Under the pieces are notes generated by a model. The model saw only the letters and a list, made by a program, of their open reading frames with translations. It made no database searches and was not told the origin of the DNA. Positions 1-8,089 of a stretch of DNA of 64,000 nt are shown here, piece by piece (positions within the stretch are counted from its first letter, which is position 1; the number at the start of each line of letters is the position of its first letter). This DNA is from Desulfovibrio sp. UCD-KL4C (GTDB lineage: Bacteria > Desulfobacterota > Desulfovibrionia > Desulfovibrionales > Desulfovibrionaceae). The stretch spans positions 444,843-508,842 of the forward strand of contig NZ_VCNC01000001.1 in NCBI RefSeq assembly GCF_006210265.1. Direction: 5' to 3'. A program made the translations under genes and the position numbers.

Positions 1-68
1 AAATTAGAATGTATGAACTTGGTGAATATAATGATTCTATGCGTGAACGGGCTCTTAAGAAGTTATGA
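1..68 (+). CDS. C-terminal end of a truncated unknown protein
   Basis: The third forward frame is open from the left edge to a TGA at 66-68 and encodes about 21 residues, IRMYELGEYNDSMRERALKK plus a final L. The charged, amphipathic composition looks coding, whereas the other two forward frames are either closed early or hydrophobic nonsense. No family can be assigned from so short a tail. It would lie upstream of rlpA on the same strand. Confidence 0.4.
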   Translation, partial: IRMYELGEYNDSMRERALKKL

Positions 69-160
69 ATTATTGATCTTTACTTGCAAAAAAAGCATAT
101 TCTGAATAGAGGAACAGAGTTTCAGTTAGTTTTTTATATATCATACGGCAGGAGATTTTT

Positions 161-889
161 ATGTTTAAAAGAACGTTTCTAATGATGTTGGTGTTCGTAA
201 TTTCTGTAAGTTTTGCTTACGCAGAAGAACCTGCTGAAAATAGTACTGAAATAAATGCAACAGCGACTGTAAGTAATGATTTATCTGTCCAAGTTGTTCC
301 TGCAGATTATAAGGAAGAGGGAGTTGCTTCATGGTATGGTGAGGAATTTCAAGGTAAAGTAACGGCAAGCGGTGAACCGTATGATATGGATAAGCAGACA
401 GCAGCGCATAACTATCTTCCGCTTGGCGTAAAAGTTACTGTAACTAATTTAGATTCCGGAAAAAGTGCAGTTGTCACAATAAATGATAGAGGACCGTTTG
501 TGCCTGACCGTATAATCGATCTTTCCCGCGCAGCCGCAGATAAACTGGGTTTTACTGATGTAGGTAAAGCTAATGTCCGTATTGAAGCTTACCGTCCTCA
601 AGAGAAGAAAGAAGTTGTAGCAAAACCAGCTGAGCATAAACTTTACGGGGCATTTTATATTCAGGTCGGGGCGTACAAAGTTAAAGACAATGCTGACAGG
701 CTTATTGAACGCCTTGAAAAAATCGGGTTCCATAATGCCAGAATTGTACGTGTTGTGACTGACAGTGCCCAAATCTTCAAGGTTCAGCTTGGAATGTATA
801 AATCTCTTGCTAGTGCACGCAAGGCCAATCTTAAAATTGGTCCGGGGTTTCCGGGAACTTTCATACTTGCTGATGTAGTGCAGTATTAA
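161..889 (+). CDS. rlpA: RlpA-like septal lytic transglycosylase with SPOR domain
   Basis: 242 residues. A Sec signal peptide (about residues 1-21, ending AYA) is followed by a double-psi beta-barrel RlpA domain (about 50-142) with the family motifs GVASWYG near residue 53 and NDRGPFVPDRIIDLS near 107-121; these include the conserved Asp of the catalytic region. A SPOR peptidoglycan-binding domain occupies about 163-240 (YIQVGAYK start). RlpA proteins cleave naked glycan strands and localise to the septum through SPOR. No lipobox Cys is present, so it is probably periplasmic and soluble rather than a lipoprotein. The start is supported by an AGGAG 8 bases upstream of ATG. A weak promoter candidate, TTGATC at 73-78 and CATATT at 96-101, lies upstream. 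Confidence 0.93.
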   Translation: MFKRTFLMMLVFVISVSFAYAEEPAENSTEINATATVSNDLSVQVVPADYKEEGVASWYGEEFQGKVTASGEPYDMDKQTAAHNYLPLGVKVTVTNLDSGKSAVVTINDRGPFVPDRIIDLSRAAADKLGFTDVGKANVRIEAYRPQEKKEVVAKPAEHKLYGAFYIQVGAYKVKDNADRLIERLEKIGFHNARIVRVVTDSAQIFKVQLGMYKSLASARKANLKIGPGFPGTFILADVVQY

Positions 890-917
890 AATTAAAAAAT
901 TCAGATTAACAGTTAAA

Positions 918-956
918 AAAATCCCGCGCTCGAAATTTTCGAACGCGGGATTTTTT
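918..956. terminator. Bidirectional rho-independent terminator between rlpA and fxsA
   Basis: ATCCCGCG (921-928) pairs with CGCGGGAT (944-951), extended by an inner TCGAA/TTCGA stem. It is flanked by an A-run on the left and a T-run on the right, so it can serve the convergent genes on both strands. Confidence 0.9.
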
Positions 957-966
957 GGTCAATTTT

Positions 967-1467
967 TTATTGAAGCGGTCCGTCTTTATCGTCAGGATTA
1001 TGAGCTTCGATATCAATTACATTTTCGATTTTATGTGAGCGTGGCTCCGGGTTGGACCAGGCTTTGAATTCTGTGTGTTGGTAAGCCATGTGCACATTCG
1101 GACTTTTTTTCCAGTTTGCCATTTTAATACGCAACCAGCGTTTGAAGTATCCGCGTGTGAGTGGGAAGAGCAGAAGCAGGCCGAGTGTGTCCGTTATGAA
1201 TCCGGGAGTGAGCAGGGTTAGTCCTGCTGCAAAAATGATAACTGCATCAAGAATTTCCTCGGCAGGCATTATGCCTTGATCCATGTTCTCGCGAACCTTC
1301 TGCATTGCAGCCATTCCCTGTGAACGGGCAAGAACTGCTCCGATAAAGGCTGTAAGCAAAACCAGTATAACTGTGTTAAGCGTGCCTATTTGCCCGCCAA
1401 TCTTAACAAGAAGATATAAATCAAATATAGGAACAAGAACAAAGGCTAAAAAAAGTTTGCCAAGCAT
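967..1467 (-). CDS. fxsA: FxsA family membrane protein
   Basis: 166 residues. FxsA is a cytoplasmic membrane protein of poorly known role; E. coli FxsA modulates phage T7 exclusion by F. The sequence shows the family layout: N-terminal hydrophobic segment (about 3-20), a second at about 28-47 followed by ARSQGM, and a long hydrophobic stretch (about 73-103) with the family-like LLTPGFITDTLG motif. A soluble charged tail follows (about 115-166). It starts 25 bases after the TSUP gene stop on the same strand and probably shares its transcript. The family call is firm; the cellular role is not. Confidence 0.9.
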   Translation of the reverse strand: MLGKLFLAFVLVPIFDLYLLVKIGGQIGTLNTVILVLLTAFIGAVLARSQGMAAMQKVRENMDQGIMPAEEILDAVIIFAAGLTLLTPGFITDTLGLLLLFPLTRGYFKRWLRIKMANWKKSPNVHMAYQHTEFKAWSNPEPRSHKIENVIDIEAHNPDDKDGPLQ

Positions 1468-1491
1468 TAATTACTCCGTGCTTTAAAAATC

Positions 1492-2217
1492 TTATCCGAT
1501 GCTTTCAAAAATAAGCATTATTCCCATGAAGACAAGCAGAATCATAACCATTCTTTTATATAGTTCGTCGGAGATTTTTCCTGCAAGCGAGTATCCAAGG
1601 TAAACGCCTAGCAGTACAGGAATAAGCGAAGCAAGAAAAAGTTTAAAAACATAAAAAGTAGTTATGCCGCTTATTAAGTGCCCGGCAGCTCCAAAAGTTG
1701 CCGAGGTTATAAAGAATCCGGCAAGAGTTGATTTGAGTTCATCTTTTTCCCAGCCCATAACCGCAGCATAAATAATGACAGGAGGTCCACCGGCACTGAC
1801 TGTTGCGGTGAGAAAGCCAGTTGAGAACCCTCCAAGCAGTCCCCATAAAGGATGTAGTTTTAGAATTACAGGTTTAATAAGCAGGGAATACGCAGCATAC
1901 CCGGCAAGAAGAATACCGAGTAAAAACATAATAATGTTAGAATTTACTTGGTTAACCACAACAGTCCCGAAGATTGCTCCGGGAATACAGCCTATGGTTA
2001 GCGGAAGGACTTTTTTTAAATCAATTTTTGCTCTCAGGTTGAGAACCATTTTAAGATTGATGACAACTCCGCACAGAGTGCAGACAGCCACAGCAGTTTT
2101 AATATCAAGGACAAATGCAAGCAAGGGCATCGCGATCATTGCTGATCCGAATCCTGTTAAACCTTGCAAAAATCCTGCGATGAGGAAAATTAATGGAACA
2201 AGGATAAATGGTGTCAT
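1492..2217 (-). CDS. TSUP (TauE/SafE) family permease
   Basis: 241 residues, about seven to eight transmembrane helices, with the TSUP signature GFLQGLTGFGSAMIAMPLL near the N-terminus and a repeated half with SAGGPPVIIYAA near residue 145. The family exports or imports small sulfur compounds (sulfite, sulfonates, thiosulfate) and other anions; substrate cannot be read from sequence. The gene lies 72 bases downstream of the TusA-like selenoprotein gene on the same strand. TSUP permeases often sit beside TusA-type sulfur carriers (for example YedE/YedF-like or PmpAB-type pairs), so a sulfur or selenium transport role is inferred. No clear Shine-Dalgarno precedes the ATG, which suggests coupling to upstream translation. 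Confidence 0.88.
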   Translation of the reverse strand: MTPFILVPLIFLIAGFLQGLTGFGSAMIAMPLLAFVLDIKTAVAVCTLCGVVINLKMVLNLRAKIDLKKVLPLTIGCIPGAIFGTVVVNQVNSNIIMFLLGILLAGYAAYSLLIKPVILKLHPLWGLLGGFSTGFLTATVSAGGPPVIIYAAVMGWEKDELKSTLAGFFITSATFGAAGHLISGITTFYVFKLFLASLIPVLLGVYLGYSLAGKISDELYKRMVMILLVFMGIMLIFESIG

Positions 2218-2289
2218 AAAAATACTAAGGAGAGAATAATTGTCCGTAAGAAATTAGTCTGTTTGAAATTTGGATTGATACTTAAGAGA

Positions 2290-2514
2290 CTAATATTTTC
2301 GCAGGACTAAAAGGGTTTTATGGTTGTGAACGGTCTTTTCACTTATGACTTCAGCTTTTTTGATATCGGCTATAATGTCGATTCTATTGCGCTGGCCCAG
2401 TGCAATTTCCACAGATAATGTTTCACCAGAATTAAGATCTTTGAGACGTGAACTCGTCTCTATGAATCCTGTTCAACAGTCAGCCCAGCAGACAATTGGC
2501 TCATTATTATTCAT
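2290..2514 (-). CDS. TusA-like selenoprotein with in-frame UGA (Sec14)
   Basis: Reading from ATG (2514-2512) gives 74 residues if the TGA at 2475-2473 is decoded as selenocysteine; otherwise the product stops after 13. The first part reads MNNNEPIVCWADC-U-TGF and the rest follows the TusA/SirA fold pattern: U-TGFIETSSRLKDLNSGE, then LSVEI, then KKAEVISEK and a final LLVLRKY strand. Against TusA motif CPxP, Cys13 aligns with the sulfur-carrying Cys and Sec14 with the first Pro. A hairpin of bacterial SECIS geometry follows the UGA (2434-2470). TusA proteins carry sulfur as a persulfide. It lies upstream of the TSUP permease and just after the S1-gene terminator hairpin. A pseudogene with a nonsense mutation is the alternative; the intact downstream frame and the SECIS-like fold argue against it. 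Confidence 0.78.
2434..2470 (-). promoter_or_regulatory. Candidate bacterial SECIS element
   Basis: In the mRNA, two bases after the UGA, AGGAUU (2470-2465) pairs with GAUCUU (2439-2434) using two wobble pairs. An internal loop CAUA/AAA follows, then a perfect 6-bp stem GAGACG/CGUCUC (2460-2455 with 2448-2443) closed by a 6-base loop AGUUCA. The apical loop starts 19 bases after UGA and has G as its second base. Both agree with the known bacterial SECIS consensus (G among the first two loop bases, apical loop about 16-37 bases from UGA). The fold is a manual prediction. Confidence 0.72.
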
Positions 2515-2539
2515 AGTGGTAGATCTCTAAGTAAGGTAA

Positions 2540-2567
2540 GGGCCGGATTCCTTAGAGAATCCGGCCC
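2540..2567 (-). terminator. Hairpin after the S1 protein gene
   Basis: GGGCCGGATTC (2540-2550) and GAATCCGGCCC (2557-2567) form an 11-bp perfect stem with a 6-base loop, starting 7 bases after the S1 gene stop. The bases that follow on the minus strand are only moderately T-rich, so some read-through into the selenoprotein gene is possible. Confidence 0.7.
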
Positions 2568-2574
2568 TAGAATA

Positions 2575-4080
2575 TTATTTCTTATTTTTCATGGCTTCTT
2601 GGAGTTTCATTCCAAGAAGTCCGCCGAATCCACTAGAGTCTCCGGAAGTAGTGACTTTGGGTTCAGCTGCTTTACGCTGTGAAGATTTTTTAGAAGCAGC
2701 AGGTTTTGCATACTTTTTCCAATCTATATCTTCTTTAGCTTCACCTGTGCTCAGGGTGATCTTGCGGTCAGCTAAGTTGATTTCTTCAATAGTCAGCTTA
2801 ACCTTCTGACCTGGAGTCAACGTTTCCAGTTCATTTTTTCTTTCTGAGCGGGTAATACGTGACATGGGCAGAAGTCCGGTAATTCCAGGAGCAAGGCTTA
2901 CGAAAACACCGAATTCGGCTTTATTTTCGACAACGCCTTCAACTTCTGTTCCGACTTTGAAAGATTCAGCCACGTCAAGCCATGGATCACCTTCAGAATC
3001 TTTCATGCTGAGAGCAATACGGCGTTTAACGAGGTCAAGATCTTTAATCATGACGGAAACTTCCTGTCCGGCTGTGACTTCTTCCCTTGGTTTGTGAACG
3101 CGCTTGGTATAGCTCATTTCAGAAATATGAACTAAGCCTTCGATGCCGGGTGCAATTTCAACAAATACGCCGAAATCTGCGCAACGGGCAACTGTTCCGG
3201 TAACTTTGTCGCCGGGGTTAAACTTTTCACCGACTTCATCCCAAGGATCAGCTTGAAGCTGCTTGAGAGAAAGACTGATCTTAAGTCCTTTTCCGTCCTT
3301 ACGTGGTTCCATGGCAAGGATTCTGACAGTGATGTCATCACCGGGCTGAACTACGTCCTCAGGCTTAGCAGAGCGTGACCAGCTAAGTTCTGATACGTGG
3401 ACCATTCCTTCCACTCCGGGAACAAGTTCCACAAATGCGCCAAAGGCCATAAGTTTAGTAACCTTACCTTCAAGAACTGCTCCAGGTTCAACCTCTGCGA
3501 TAAATTTCTCGCGGGCTTTTTCCTGTTCAATTTCGAGAAGAGCTCTGCGGGAAACAACTATGTTGCGTCCGCCTTCCTCAAACTTGATGACTCTGAAATT
3601 GTGTGTTTCACCCACGTACTGTTCGGGGTTTTCCACGAAAGTTGCGTCAATCTGGCTGACGGGACAGAACACCTTGCGGTGCATCATGCTGACTCTGAAA
3701 CCACCTTTACAGGTTTCCATAACCTTACCTTCTACGGGTAGACCGCTTTCATATGCATCATTAAGCATATTGAGGCCACCTGCGCCGGACATGGCTTTGG
3801 ATAGGCTGATTCCATTACTGTCAATGGAGATAACGTAGAGTTCTACGGCGTCTCCTTCCTTAACTGTCAGTTCGCCTTCGGTATCGGTCAGCTCGTCACG
3901 GTTTACAATCCCGTCTACTTTAGAGCCTGTGTCTACAAACACAGAGTCTTTAGTGACTGAAATTACAGTTCCTTTAACTAGATCACCGACTTGAAGGTTG
4001 TCGTTTGATTCTGACTGAAAAGCTTCAAAAAGTTCGGCAAAGTTTTCTTCGCCATTTGCTTCCAAGTTCTGCTCGGACAT
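2575..4080 (-). CDS. S1 RNA-binding domain protein (ribosomal protein S1-like)
   Basis: 501 residues with five tandem S1 OB-fold repeats at about 28-98, 113-182, 198-268, 285-355 and 372-442. Repeats three to five show the canonical GAFVELVPGVEGMVHVSELSW, DFGVFVEIAPGIEGLVHISEM and EFGVFVSLAPGITGLLP patterns. A basic, Lys/Ser-rich tail ends in KNKK. S1 proteins bind mRNA and help the 30S subunit capture structured or weak leaders. Canonical proteobacterial S1 has six domains and about 550-570 residues, so this shorter protein may be the only S1 or a paralogue; the window cannot decide. Start: ATG with AGGAG about 8 bases upstream. Confidence 0.88.
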   Translation of the reverse strand: MSEQNLEANGEENFAELFEAFQSESNDNLQVGDLVKGTVISVTKDSVFVDTGSKVDGIVNRDELTDTEGELTVKEGDAVELYVISIDSNGISLSKAMSGAGGLNMLNDAYESGLPVEGKVMETCKGGFRVSMMHRKVFCPVSQIDATFVENPEQYVGETHNFRVIKFEEGGRNIVVSRRALLEIEQEKAREKFIAEVEPGAVLEGKVTKLMAFGAFVELVPGVEGMVHVSELSWSRSAKPEDVVQPGDDITVRILAMEPRKDGKGLKISLSLKQLQADPWDEVGEKFNPGDKVTGTVARCADFGVFVEIAPGIEGLVHISEMSYTKRVHKPREEVTAGQEVSVMIKDLDLVKRRIALSMKDSEGDPWLDVAESFKVGTEVEGVVENKAEFGVFVSLAPGITGLLPMSRITRSERKNELETLTPGQKVKLTIEEINLADRKITLSTGEAKEDIDWKKYAKPAASKKSSQRKAAEPKVTTSGDSSGFGGLLGMKLQEAMKNKK

Positions 4081-4183
4081 TCTCTATACTCCTGGAGGGA
4101 AAAGTCATCGCGACAGATGTGTTTTTTAGTGCCGCGAACAATGGGAACCTAACGGTATTGGAAGCATTTTTCAAACCATTTAT

Positions 4184-4948
4184 TCAAGATATTTTCAGTA
4201 AAGATTTTCCATAGAGGGCTGAGCCGAGTGCTCCGACCATATCTGGCCTTTCCGGAGTGAGTGGTTTAATGCTAATTGATTTATATAACATATCGATAAC
4301 ACAGGCATTATTTGCAACCCCTCCTGCGAACACCAATGGCTCGGAGAGGCCGACCCTATGCAGCATATTTATTGTGCGGCGCACAATGGAAGCATGTAAA
4401 CCGAGGGCAATATCACGCGGATTTTTGCCTTGAGCCATTAAAGAGGTCGCTTCTGTCTCCGCAAAAACTGTGCACATGCTATTTATTATGAGCGGCTCAG
4501 TCCCTTCTAGAGCGTAATTTCCGAATTCTTCAATAGGGATCTGAAAAACGGTTGAGAGATTTTCAAGAAATTTTCCTGTTCCGGCTGCGCAGCGATCATT
4601 CATTTCGAATTTGGAAACCTTGCCGTTCTTCATAAGTGAGATTGCTTTGGTATCCTGTCCACCTATATCTAGGATGGTACGAGCTTCAGGGAAAAGGTGC
4701 GAAATGCCGAGTGCATAAGCTTTTATTTCAGTCAGTGATACGCAAGGAACTTTGCATATTTCTTCGGTTACGAGCTTTCTGCCATAGCCTGTTGCGGAAA
4801 TCAGATCGGCTTTAACACCGTCCAGAATTACTTTTAATTGTGAGGCAGGATCGAAAGTAGTGGGGAGTTTGCGTTCAAGTACAACTTCATTATCATTAAG
4901 CAGTACTAATTCCATTGACCGTGAGCCGATATCGATTCCAGCAATCAT
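4184..4948 (-). CDS. Acyl-CoA dehydratase activase (HgdC/BadF family), ATPase
   Basis: 254 residues of the ASKHA ATPase fold: phosphate-1 motif IDIGSRSMELVL at the N-terminus, DIGGQDTKAISL near 94-105 and the adenosine motif FAGGVANN near 217. Cys120 (NDRCAAGTGKFLE) and Cys159 (NSMCTVFAETEA) match the two Cys residues of each monomer that share one [4Fe-4S] cluster across the homodimer. Activases of this family drive ATP-dependent one-electron injection into the partner reductase or dehydratase. The partner is encoded immediately upstream (5017-6294), as in the yjiL/yjiM and DCCR/DCCP pairs. Length is typical for the single-domain class. Confidence 0.9.
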   Translation of the reverse strand: MIAGIDIGSRSMELVLLNDNEVVLERKLPTTFDPASQLKVILDGVKADLISATGYGRKLVTEEICKVPCVSLTEIKAYALGISHLFPEARTILDIGGQDTKAISLMKNGKVSKFEMNDRCAAGTGKFLENLSTVFQIPIEEFGNYALEGTEPLIINSMCTVFAETEATSLMAQGKNPRDIALGLHASIVRRTINMLHRVGLSEPLVFAGGVANNACVIDMLYKSISIKPLTPERPDMVGALGSALYGKSLLKIS

Positions 4949-4969
4949 TTTTAACTCAGCTTGTTGATA

Positions 4970-4991
4970 AAGGGGCGGTAAGCCGCCCCTT
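4970..4991 (-). other. Intercistronic hairpin in the dehydratase/activase pair
   Basis: AAGGGGCGG (4970-4978) pairs with CCGCCCCTT (4983-4991) around a four-base loop. No T-run follows on the minus strand, so it probably tunes or protects the dicistronic mRNA rather than ending it. Confidence 0.5.
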
Positions 4992-5016
4992 ATATTATTA
5001 TGAATGCAGAATTTTT

Positions 5017-6294
5017 TTAGGAGATCATTTCCACAAAGGCTTCAACCCTTGTTTTAAGCTGTTCTACATCTTCCATACTGTAATCTGTTTCAATTGAGAG
5101 CATGGGGACATCATTTTCTGCAAGTGCTTTTTCAACTTTGAATGCTTCGTGAGTGTAAGGCTGGCAGAACATAAGTGAGTAATGAATAACGCCATCAACG
5201 CCTGTTTCTTTTGCAAGAGCTTTAATATTATCGATGCGTTCGTTATTTGGAGTAAAGCAGGCACAGTCGATTTTCATGTAACGGTCACAAAGGGCATCAA
5301 TCATTTCTTCAACGGTTTCGCCTGATTCATCCACAAGGTCACGGCTGTTCCGTGTTCCTATACATGATTCTTCTGCGACAACGACTGCTCCTGAACCTTC
5401 AATTATGTAGGGTAATTTCCAGTTAGGAACAGCCATTGGACAGCCGGAGAGCATAAGCCTCGGTGTATTTTCATGGACGATGCCTTCATTTTTGGCAACA
5501 CGTTCTTCTATTTGATCACACAGTGTATTGATGGACTGTGTGAAACGGATAGGGTCATCATAAAAGCTGACCTGATTGATGAGAAGAACGTCACGTCCGG
5601 AAATCGGTGTAGGTTTAGCGGCGCGCAGTTTGTTGAGCCTTTGCAGAGCGCGTCTTTTATCATTAACTATTTTAATGCCATTTTTAAGGGACTCAGCAGT
5701 AATGGTTTTGCCGGTAACTTCTTCAAGTTTATCTTTTAAGCGCAGAACTTCAGATTTCCACAAAACTCTGTCGCTGGCTCCCTTACGCTGTGGAACTTCC
5801 ATAATGTGCATGGGAGCCATTTCGCTGAAAGCTTCGTATGCTTTTTTCTTACCGTCACAAGTCGTTTCGCCGATCACAAGATCGCAAGACTCGGTGTAAG
5901 GACAGATTTTAGCCATTTTAAAGCCGATGAAAGATTTGATCAGCGCGCAAGTGTTGCGGGGGACGATAGTTTCAGCAGCTTCTGTTCCGGCATCAGCTCC
6001 GGCGCAAAGTCCCACTTGAACAGCATCAACCGCGAGAGAGAGTTCTTCTGGCACGAAAACACAGAATGTTCCGATAATTTTTCTACCTTCAGCTTTGGCG
6101 TCCATAAGTTCTTTAATACGAAGACCATGCACTTCAGAAAGTACGAAGTCCAGATATTCCATACCTTTGAGGCGGCCTTCCTGAGTCATATAAATATCAC
6201 CATAGAATTTGCCGAGCACTTCGAGAAGCCCGTCATGTGCTGCGATATCAAGATTCAGATTTTCCCACATTTCTTTATACGCTGATTCTGCCAT
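5017..6294 (-). CDS. 2-hydroxyacyl-CoA dehydratase-like / double-cubane cluster reductase
   Basis: 425 residues of the HgdB/FldB/BcrB family. Cys-containing family motifs are GTFCVFVPEELS (near 96), CAGADAG (near 118), CPYTESCDLVIGETTCDGKK (near 151-170), LSGCPMAVPNW, EESCIGTR, CACFTPNNER and MFCQPYTHEA. The CPYTESCD motif and the single large subunit beside an activase match the double-cubane-cluster proteins (DCCP, E. coli YjiM type) rather than two-subunit hydroxyglutaryl-CoA dehydratase. DCCP carries an unusual [8Fe-9S] cluster and reduces small molecules such as acetylene in vitro; its physiological substrate is unknown. No second dehydratase subunit or CoA-transferase lies nearby, which supports this reading. 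Start: ATG preceded by GAGGGAA. Confidence 0.87.
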   Translation of the reverse strand: MAESAYKEMWENLNLDIAAHDGLLEVLGKFYGDIYMTQEGRLKGMEYLDFVLSEVHGLRIKELMDAKAEGRKIIGTFCVFVPEELSLAVDAVQVGLCAGADAGTEAAETIVPRNTCALIKSFIGFKMAKICPYTESCDLVIGETTCDGKKKAYEAFSEMAPMHIMEVPQRKGASDRVLWKSEVLRLKDKLEEVTGKTITAESLKNGIKIVNDKRRALQRLNKLRAAKPTPISGRDVLLINQVSFYDDPIRFTQSINTLCDQIEERVAKNEGIVHENTPRLMLSGCPMAVPNWKLPYIIEGSGAVVVAEESCIGTRNSRDLVDESGETVEEMIDALCDRYMKIDCACFTPNNERIDNIKALAKETGVDGVIHYSLMFCQPYTHEAFKVEKALAENDVPMLSIETDYSMEDVEQLKTRVEAFVEMIS

Positions 6295-6496
6295 GATTGA
6301 TTCCCTCGCGAAATTTGTTGGATTTTATTAAAATAGAAGCTTTGGAAATAATGGAGTTCAGCTAATAGGACAAATTGATAAAAACCATCTTTATATTATT
6401 TTTTTATTTGTAAAATCTATAACGAGAAAGAGCATCTACTAGCCTTTAACTGTTTATTCATATACTTCTGCCGCATACAAAGTAAAGAGGGTGAAA

Positions 6497-8089
6497 TTGA
6501 AGAAAGCGGAAGCAACGGCTTATGCTCGTGGTTTAATTCCTGAAAGAGAATTCAGCGCAGCTTATATGGATCTTAGAAATTTGAGAGGACTTTTGCAAAA
6601 GAGTCCTGATAGTGCTGATTATGAAATTATAAAAGCTGTATGGGATGTGATTGTAGAGCAGAGATATTCTGATCAGACCATGTCTCGTCTTCTTTATAGA
6701 GAATGTTCAAAAGCCTTAGCTGCGGTGGGAGCTTTCTGCACAGATTCCAAGCTTTCTTCAAAGGCTCTCAGTCTTCAGGTACAGGCAGCAAGTACATGTA
6801 CCGAACATGCCTCGATAGAGGCTTCCGGAGGACTTGGTGTTTTGCCGTTTGAGCTGGTCCTTCCTGATTCTCCTCCTAAATTGTCAGGCCATTCTCCATC
6901 TATTTCTTGGGATGAACTGCTGAAAGCCGGAAAAGTCACAAGTGAGCCTGTCTTTTCAGGGCGTAGTGCTGTAATGGAATCCGCAGGTGATAATCAAATT
7001 TTTGCGGTAAAAATTGCACGCAACGAAGAATCTCCCGAAGGGCTTCACCTTGAGGGAAAGTGGATGGAAAAGCTCTTTGCTGATGCCAAGCGCTGCTCCG
7101 TACGGTTTGACTGTCCGCGTCCATTTCCCGTTTCAGATCAAATGCTTTTCAAGATTACGGGACTGCCCGAAAATTGCCCAGAGAATCTGCACAAAGACGG
7201 CTATGCAATGGCTTATCATGCACACAGTGATTACTTTGCTTATCCGAACGATGATAGAGAAGGAAAGCGCACAGAACCACAGGATTTTTTGGAAATAATG
7301 TCTAGAAATTCATATATATTGGGCTGGCTTGCAGGAAGAGGCATTGTGCATGATGCGCCAATCCCGCTTTTTCATAACAGAGTGCAGGCCATGCGACGCA
7401 CAGATGAAGGGGTATACCAGTGGCATAGATTCGGAAGGTTAGATCGCTGGCTTGAGTCATGCCGATTCCCTAATTTCGGGCGTTCTGGACTGCGTGACTT
7501 TGAACATTTGCAGGTGATGAAACCTGGCACAGATAAGTTTTACAGAGCCATTGGCTCTCATTTCATGAGCATACTGTTGGTCATAGGAAGCTGGTTCAGA
7601 GCGCAGAATTCAGAACTGTGCGGACTTGATGAGAAGGATGAACCCATTGATGCCCGTTCGCTTTTTGATTCTGAATTTTTTGAGAATGCAGTGATGTCAT
7701 GTTTTACAGAATACTACAGAGGTTTTACGGGATTTGAATTTCAGCATGAAATCGATTTGCACATTTCCAAACTGGTAAAATGCATGATCGATCAAATGGG
7801 CGTCGACAATCATATGTTCGAGTTCATGCGGATAGTTGACCAGAATATTCTGGAAGATAGAGAATTCCGTAATTACCTGTTGAAATATGGAATGGCTCCT
7901 GAAAAAGTCGCAGAGCTTAAAAAAGGCGAAGCTGATATTCCGCTTGTAACAGGGCCGCATCTAGGAAATTTCAATGGGGTTATATCACTGCCCGAAATAA
8001 TAGAATGGTCCGCAATGGCGGCGGGGTGCTGCATTGCGGCTAAGTCTCTCGGTGAACGGTGGGTTGGGGCTAGGCTTGGGGTGGTGTAG
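6497..8089 (+). CDS. SidJ-related pseudokinase-like protein
   Basis: About 530 residues, no signal peptide or membrane segment. Numbering from GTG 6491, a kinase-like core is suggested by FAVKIARNEES (Lys174, like the beta-3 VAIK Lys), HLEGKWMEKLF (Glu188/193, possible helix-C Glu), GRGIVHDAPIPLFHNR (282-297, catalytic-loop position with His287, Asp288, Asn296) and LRDFEHL (Asp336, magnesium-loop position). The remote resemblance is to SidJ-type pseudokinases, whose Legionella prototype is a calmodulin-activated polyglutamylase; the name is recalled, not searched. Start choice: AAAGAGG directly abuts GTG 6491 but is 6 bases before TTG 6497, so TTG is preferred. The gene stands alone, convergent with pbpC. 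Confidence 0.6.
   Translation: MKKAEATAYARGLIPEREFSAAYMDLRNLRGLLQKSPDSADYEIIKAVWDVIVEQRYSDQTMSRLLYRECSKALAAVGAFCTDSKLSSKALSLQVQAASTCTEHASIEASGGLGVLPFELVLPDSPPKLSGHSPSISWDELLKAGKVTSEPVFSGRSAVMESAGDNQIFAVKIARNEESPEGLHLEGKWMEKLFADAKRCSVRFDCPRPFPVSDQMLFKITGLPENCPENLHKDGYAMAYHAHSDYFAYPNDDREGKRTEPQDFLEIMSRNSYILGWLAGRGIVHDAPIPLFHNRVQAMRRTDEGVYQWHRFGRLDRWLESCRFPNFGRSGLRDFEHLQVMKPGTDKFYRAIGSHFMSILLVIGSWFRAQNSELCGLDEKDEPIDARSLFDSEFFENAVMSCFTEYYRGFTGFEFQHEIDLHISKLVKCMIDQMGVDNHMFEFMRIVDQNILEDREFRNYLLKYGMAPEKVAELKKGEADIPLVTGPHLGNFNGVISLPEIIEWSAMAAGCCIAAKSLGERWVGARLGVV

Follow-up and report, generated by a model that had tools for sequence, protein, structure and literature searches.

A probable selenoprotein of TusA-like fold, with adjoining Cys and Sec residues, encoded across an in-frame UGA in Desulfovibrio sp. 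UCD-KL4C

The window analyzed here (the whole stretch of DNA under study, 64,000 nucleotides of the Desulfovibrio sp. UCD-KL4C genome) contains a short minus-strand reading frame interrupted by a stop codon, and this locus raises the question of whether that codon ends translation or is read as selenocysteine (Sec), and what protein would then be made. An initial annotation, made from the sequence alone, had proposed a 74-codon gene broken by a single TGA at codon 14. We confirmed this structure on the sequence: the frame reads MNNNEPIVCWADC-TGA-TGFIETSSRLKDLNSGETLSVEIALGQRNRIDIIADIKKAEVISEKTVHNHKTLLVLRKY-TAG, the TGA at codon 14 is its sole internal stop, and with TGA taken as Sec the translation begins MNNNEPIVCWADCUTGFIETSSRLKDLNSGETLSVEI... 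(Table 1). From the evidence described below, we consider it highly probable that the gene encodes a Sec-decoded protein of TusA fold with a Cys-Sec active pair. The name of such a family was found nowhere, and we call it DCUxG here.

Table 1. Positions of the selenoprotein gene candidate, its RNA elements and its neighbors in the window
Feature	Position	Strand	Details
Probable DCUxG family selenoprotein gene	2290..2514	-	74 codons and TAG stop; Cys13-Sec14 pair
In-frame UGA, codon 14, putative Sec codon	2473..2475	-	Exactly one TGA in each of 85 strongly matching genomes
Putative SECIS hairpin	2443..2460	-	6 bp stem, loop AGUUCA, 18 bases from UGA to loop; fold, published constraints, covariation, AGT codon constraint
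TauE/SafE-type membrane exporter	1492..2217	-	PF01925, E 1.3e-34; 72 bases downstream of the gene; downstream in 16/16 same-genus loci
13 bp GC-rich hairpin, between S1 and selenoprotein genes	2539..2568	-	-24.6 kcal/mol, z -5.9
30S ribosomal protein S1	2575..4080	-	NF010379, 737 bits, above cut-off; upstream in 16/16 same-genus loci
Acyl-CoA dehydratase activase	4184-4948	-	In front of S1
Double-cubane-cluster anaerobic reductase	5017-6294	-	NF040772, 495 bits; in front of S1

The reading frame and its relatives

Ordinary annotation is blind to this gene because a stop codon lies inside its frame. The expectation that ordinary gene finders would miss it was supported by a scan of the window protein against Pfam and NCBIfam, which returned no match at E ≤ 1. 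Its internal stop is very probably read as Sec.

A protein search of 40 related genomes returned matches in 18, each with exactly one TGA: the genome under study, 15 of the 16 others of its genus, one from another genus of the family and one from another family of the order. Variation among 16 same-genus loci is greatest at third codon positions 3' of the hairpin that follows the UGA (0.42/0.32/0.63 over the three positions, codons +12 to +58). Given these matches, with one TGA each, and this third-position variation, we conclude that the frame is not a product of chance.

We observed the same pattern at greater distances. A profile search of the order (348 genomes, the same number as in the class) matched 56 genomes at E ≤ 0.01, of which 54 were strong matches, all with one TGA, and a profile built from all 54 matched 55 of the 348, namely the same 54 and a weak, stop-free locus in G161. 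In a sample of 395 genomes of the phylum, 24 matches were obtained with the class profile and 32 with a broader one, A4 (E ≤ 3e-10); both counts include the genome under study, and every match has one TGA. The 32-sequence alignment behind A4 combines 15 members from the class set of 54 with 17 of 19 new phylum loci, L110 and L115 having been dropped. The strong A4 matches, which end at E 3e-10, are separated by a gap from 25 weaker ones (E 0.0025-0.045). In total, 85 genomes carry the gene, 54 of the class and 31 from outside it, with one TGA in 85 of 85; in all 83 for which the sequence was read (54 of the class and 29 others, G546 and G646 lying outside this set), the TGA directly follows the same Cys. 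The first step of the genome search scores about 14-16 candidates per genome and can therefore pass over very weak relatives.

Among the 54 class members, the invariant residues are the Cys, the Sec, and a Gly and a Leu that lie two and ten residues, respectively, beyond the Sec; in the diverse 32-sequence alignment they are the Cys and the Sec only. The initial annotation had proposed a comparison with related genomes as a check, and these do conserve the sequence behind the UGA. An exact DNA pattern search of a named genome collection gave 19 matches, 16 of them true, including Nitratidesulfovibrio liaohensis, Halodesulfovibrio and Fundidesulfovibrio agrisoli; the other three (L088, L092 and L095) were judged from their translations to be chance.

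The hairpin behind the UGA and the Sec machinery

Directly behind the UGA, the initial annotation had placed a two-tier hairpin with the spacing and loop G of a bacterial SECIS element. The hairpin, its spacing and its loop G were upheld, but a single stem-loop, not two tiers, is predicted over the first 36 bases counted from the UGA (-8.7 kcal/mol, z = -2.2; equaled by 4 of 200 shuffles). Only when 51 bases are folded does a second tier form, and this longer piece is not clearly better than its shuffles (z = -1.5). Published limits for bacterial SECIS elements are a loop of 3-9 nt, a stem of 4-16 bp, G within the first two loop positions, a spacing of 16-37 nt and a minimum free energy of at most -7.5 (PMC13188914, available text). 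With a loop of 6 nt, a stem of 6 bp, G in second position, a spacing of 18 nt and -8.7 kcal/mol, the hairpin lies within all of them, and it covaries among relatives.

This covariation was assessed on 72 hairpins (L115 was dropped), which show two loop registers and have G at the loop position in 71 of 72. Sequences were grouped by their best-fitting register into sets of 30 and 36 (35 distinct), leaving out L039, L045, L051, L053 and L119, which have other or weaker stems, and L004, a near copy of L003. In the first register (30 sequences) 95.7% of cells are paired and 4 of 7 pairs have changed on both sides (30 cells), and in the second (35 sequences) these values are 97.1% and 5 of 7 (51 cells); when the partner strand was slid as a control, pairing fell to 35-61%. 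Most of the covariation controls were never reached by shuffled sequences, but two were and are not passed: 36 of 500 shuffles reach the first register's count of pairs with two-sided changes, and 396 of 500 reach the second register's count of further pair types. As the register was chosen by best fit, this grouping leans towards structure. A separate constraint is seen in codon choice, as the loop Ser (codon +7) is encoded by AGT in 50 of 52 cases versus 9 of 194 for other Ser codons behind the UGA in the same 54 genes (Fisher 3e-40). Any Ser codon would serve the protein, yet AGT is used.

The capacity to decode Sec, which the initial annotation had expected elsewhere in the genome, is encoded there: selA, selB, selC and selD all scored above the cut-offs of their models. 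We found selA at 599 bits, with selB (383 bits) about 1.4 kb further on the same contig, a tRNA-Sec at 78.7 bits that ARAGORN calls SeC with anticodon tca, and selD at 329 bits (G000:C1:379227-380144) with one in-frame TGA of its own. Across the class, selB exceeds the cut-off in 284 of 348 genomes and, by best E-value, is present in 50 of the 54 that carry the gene. The four without selB over noise are G253 and G279, which have a tRNA-Sec (84.7 and 80.2 bits, ARAGORN SeC), and G104 and G246 (75% and 67% complete), whose best tRNA-Sec matches fall below cut-off and are Trp and Ser tRNAs. The association between the gene and selB is weak (50/284 versus 4/64, p = 0.02). Because the selB and tRNA-Sec models also respond in control genomes (over cut-off in 2 of 14 and 5 of 14, respectively), the bit scores and ARAGORN calls carry the weight here, not presence alone. 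Together, these genomic data make it very likely that codon 14 is decoded as Sec; the UGA would be read by SelB and tRNA-Sec, aided by the hairpin just behind it.

A TusA-like fold, gene neighborhoods and possible roles

An AlphaFold2 model built from 17 sequences (pLDDT 91.2, pTM 0.77) has the element order b-a-b-a-b-b, with the Cys13-Sec14 pair (Sec modeled as Cys) at the start of helix 1. When this model was searched with Foldseek, the top row was a chain of the TsuA-TsuB complex (8k1r, TMq 0.73), and E. coli TusA (1dcj, 0.72/0.67; 3lvj, 0.72/0.70) and a SirA-like protein (0.68/0.68) were also matched, none with E below 0.001. Within the best 50 rows, the structures whose TM is close to 0.7 under either length normalization are of TusA or SirA-like type, and methyltransferases at similar E-values reach a target TM of at most ~0.3 among the rows listed. 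The TusA/SirA fold put forward in the initial annotation therefore agrees with a confident model and its closest structural matches, and a TusA fold of the protein is likely as modeled.

Four comparisons (hhalign, a joint MAFFT alignment, the HMMER alignment of L189 and the Pfam match of L011) agree on the register between the two families. In this register the Cys of DCU falls on the catalytic Cys of TusA, the Sec on the first Pro of CPxP and the Gly on the second, with one residue fewer before the Cys. As aligned, the TusA motif CPxP is turned into a predicted CUxG, in which Sec follows the catalytic Cys and does not replace it. The DCUxG protein resembles TusA and SirA (PF01206; 1dcj, 3lvj, 8k1r) in size, in the predicted b-a-b-a-b-b order, in the Cys at the start of helix 1 and in a GE turn, and members outside the class keep an IDxRG-like start. 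It differs from TusA in having CUxG for CPxP and one residue fewer before the Cys, in its UGA-encoded Sec, and in scores that lie below the family cut-off.

The conserved frame, the UGA, the hairpin, the genomic Sec machinery and the predicted fold were computed, and from them we infer a biochemical role. Our best guess, which is tentative, is a redox-active sulfur or selenium relay. As in TusA, the Cys would accept sulfane sulfur (or selenium). Attack by the adjoining selenolate on the Cys-bound atom would free sulfide or selenide, with a Cys-Sec bond left behind. Reduction of this bond by a thiol system would then complete what amounts to a redox form of sulfur carrier. The closest parallel in mechanism is probably the GCUG end of mammalian thioredoxin reductase, where Gly follows a Cys-Sec pair; that pair lies in a C-terminal tail, unlike the DCUxG pair, which would cap the first helix.

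Two other systems invite comparison. The genome under study has a single PF01206 match, in a 209-residue frame that we take from its size to be YedF. YedF (TusA and DsrE domains) shares with the DCUxG protein a TusA-type domain and a link to selenium, but its motif is CPxP and it carries an additional DsrE-like domain with CGxC (PMC5322559, available text), whereas the DCUxG protein has one domain and Sec. The YeeE/YedE thiosulfate transporter selenoproteins likewise place Sec in sulfur handling, and YeeE works with the TusA-like YeeD (8k1r); unlike the DCUxG protein, they are membrane proteins of another family. The exporter beside our gene is of the TauE type, and its listed frame has no in-frame TGA.

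Gene neighborhoods differ among lineages, and a neighbor common to all of them was sought and not found. In the genus of the window, a GC-rich inverted repeat like the one between the S1 and selenoprotein genes was seen by eye in 16 of 16 upstream sequences, with an ATG within a few tens of bases. This hairpin is possibly the end of the S1 transcript, and expression of the selenoprotein gene may depend on read-through of it. No Rfam family scored over its gathering threshold in positions 1-7000, and one sub-threshold match (2521-2567, E 3.4) overlaps the hairpin; a consensus promoter scan found none near the gene on its strand, with counts at chance level. The reductase ahead of S1 is present in 13 of 14 wider same-genus loci with at least 81% identity, G003 having distant matches only. 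Of 38 class loci outside the genus, 34 have the gene flanked by a nucleotide-sugar dehydrogenase and by mqnB (futalosine hydrolase), with a larger gap in L044; ubiE/menG stands in front in 33 and hepT behind in 32 (names were taken from NCBIfam matches on L062, counts from tblastn). Outside the class, a selenium metabolism-associated LysR regulator of NCBIfam is encoded upstream in 7 of 27 loci, in two other families; these 7 were chosen for testing for the LysR-like look of the upstream frame, and all 7 scored over the cut-off.

These neighborhoods bear on a rather less likely role, that of a selenium carrier that binds selenide or selenopersulfide and passes it to SelD or a transporter. As the protein would hold a Sec of its own, its level would follow the selenium supply. 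The LysR gene fits such a carrier, as does the TauE-type exporter that adjoins the gene in its own genus, and genome context is reported to tie SirA-like proteins, YedE and LysR_Se to selenium metabolism and the LysR_Se subfamily to Sec genes (PMC5322559, available text). However, the dehydrogenase and mqnB are the neighbors in the 34 class loci noted above, and the gene is absent from 234 of the 284 class genomes in which selB exceeds its cut-off.

An improbable reading makes the protein a chaperone or scavenger whose Cys-Sec pair binds a soft metal or metalloid. Against it stand the action of TusA relatives on sulfur and the lack of a metal-handling gene common to the neighborhoods. On the other side, CU motifs occur in HgcA, SaoL, SaoC and MbdU, and a recent review considers metal-binding Sec in several small families (PMC13188914, available text). 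These four and KCU-star resemble the DCUxG protein in their neighboring Cys and Sec, but in the available text of the same review they fall under other domain families, none of them TusA-like.

Kinship to TusA and the missing Cys form

To what extent the sequence itself points to TusA was judged from profile comparisons. The Pfam TusA model matched 4 of the 32 A4 members at E ≤ 1 (best L102, 1.2e-4, 22.2 bits) and, outside A4, it matched L011 at 2.1e-6 (27.9 bits) with Cys13 on profile position 10, where ordinary TusA proteins place the Cys of their CP. A genome search with this model also found the gene of L011, across its TGA, at 1.7e-5. The PF01206 cut-off of 28.6 bits was passed by no member scanned, and the window protein has no match even at E ≤ 1. 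Against 21 TusA domains, hhalign gave 1.9e-4 and 3.4e-4 with probabilities of only 48 and 38. Other families were matched as well, BRCT_2 by 6 of 32 A4 members (best 0.0042) and also TrkA_C, and a PDB sequence search with A4 gave five matches, no TusA among them, the best being an engineered repeat protein (6e-4) with no stretch passing alone.

The weak sequence scores and Foldseek E-values above 0.001 would suit a likeness of fold only, without kinship, in which case the correspondence of CPxP and CUxG would be meaningless. We hold this to be quite improbable, as the Pfam TusA model on members and hhalign agree, and as Pfam-called TusA Cys proteins (62-83 bits) occur in the same register among the weak matches of the family profile. 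Descent from TusA is thus likely, though the PF01206 score is not reached and the CPxP motif is absent, its Cys being kept and its prolines replaced by Sec and mostly Gly.

Last and by far least probable is a pseudogene, or a UGA that truly ends translation, so that either a short N-terminal peptide is made or synthesis starts further downstream. This would accord with the normal meaning of UGA and with the lack of a Shine-Dalgarno sequence visible by eye ahead of the start in the genus, but we reject it on grounds of conservation: the frame and single TGA are kept in 85 genomes, the Cys and Sec codons are invariant, residues are conserved on both sides of the UGA, and third positions vary behind it.

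At the position of the Sec, the initial annotation had envisaged orthologs with TGA, Cys or Ser. Only TGA was found; no Cys or Ser form was, and in the 348 class and 395 phylum genomes there was no homolog with Cys at this position at E < 0.001. None of the outcomes that the annotation had listed as refuting the selenoprotein reading was observed. A Cys homolog is a usual, though not strictly defining, attribute of bacterial selenoproteins, and here TusA has Pro instead. We read 8 of the 25 weak A4 matches in the phylum sample. None of the eight is a Cys form at codon 14. Four (L189, L191, L193 and L195) are TusA proteins over the Pfam cut-off (62-83 bits), and two (L192 and L194) look by eye the same as these; the TusA proteins have Pro behind the Cys. 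L190 (DSCSGF, E 0.0025, partial) looks unrelated and was judged a chance frame, and L196 also looks unrelated by eye, as does the stop-free match in G161 (E 0.002-0.004). Other weak matches of the order-wide profile search were a second one in G004 and one in G241.

We also compared loci that lack the gene, in 34 hand-picked genomes of which 28 have the dehydrogenase, giving 29 loci (L200, in G101, ends at a contig edge). The usual neighbors, dehydrogenase then mqnB, adjoin directly in 17 of 29, and a simple DCxxG-like motif was found in none of the 29 gaps after the dehydrogenase (~420 bases). Given these two results, the gene at such loci was lost or never inserted, not exchanged for a Cys form.

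On balance we lean, by a little, towards a selenoprotein family without Cys counterparts, in which Sec was gained at the proline beside the old nucleophile to give a selenium-dependent redox TusA relay in anaerobes. Nearly all selenoenzymes are described as having Cys homologs (PMC13188914, available text), and according to the deep-Sep paper every selenoprotein known so far seems to have one, while its filter may drop those that do not (PMC12013277, available text). The presence of the family in 85 sampled genomes, with no Cys form found, challenges this statement, so far as the available text goes, and indicates something that current finders overlook. Such families escape any filter that requires a Cys relative, so others may still be hidden. 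The gene also adds a missing entry to the annotation of many sulfate reducers and their relatives, and offers a small, testable protein for the role of a Cys-Sec pair in a sulfur-carrier fold.

A TusA/SirA selenoprotein is absent from the 2026 catalog of 119 families, and both words are absent from its main text as available (PMC13188914); the same text mentions a groundwater survey with unvalidated selenoprotein candidates. Neither word occurs in the available text of the deep-Sep paper (PMC12013277). Phrases such as 'TusA-like selenoprotein' had no full-text match in literature other than subscription papers and preprints; PMC11097638 contains both 'TusA' and 'selenoprotein'. In the broader literature no TusA-like selenoprotein was evident by title or abstract start among the matches listed.

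Two minor observations concern the surroundings and the more distant members of the family. In 34 class loci, L062 among them, the futalosine menaquinone cluster contains a TviB-like nucleotide-sugar dehydrogenase between ubiE/menG and mqnB, and the dehydrogenase is embedded there also in genomes that lack the selenoprotein. The diverged members from outside the class (L184 to L188, L119 and L120) have two extra residues in the first loop; as judged by eye, a dihydrouridine synthase gene is close to several of them and an ABC transporter ATPase gene to some.
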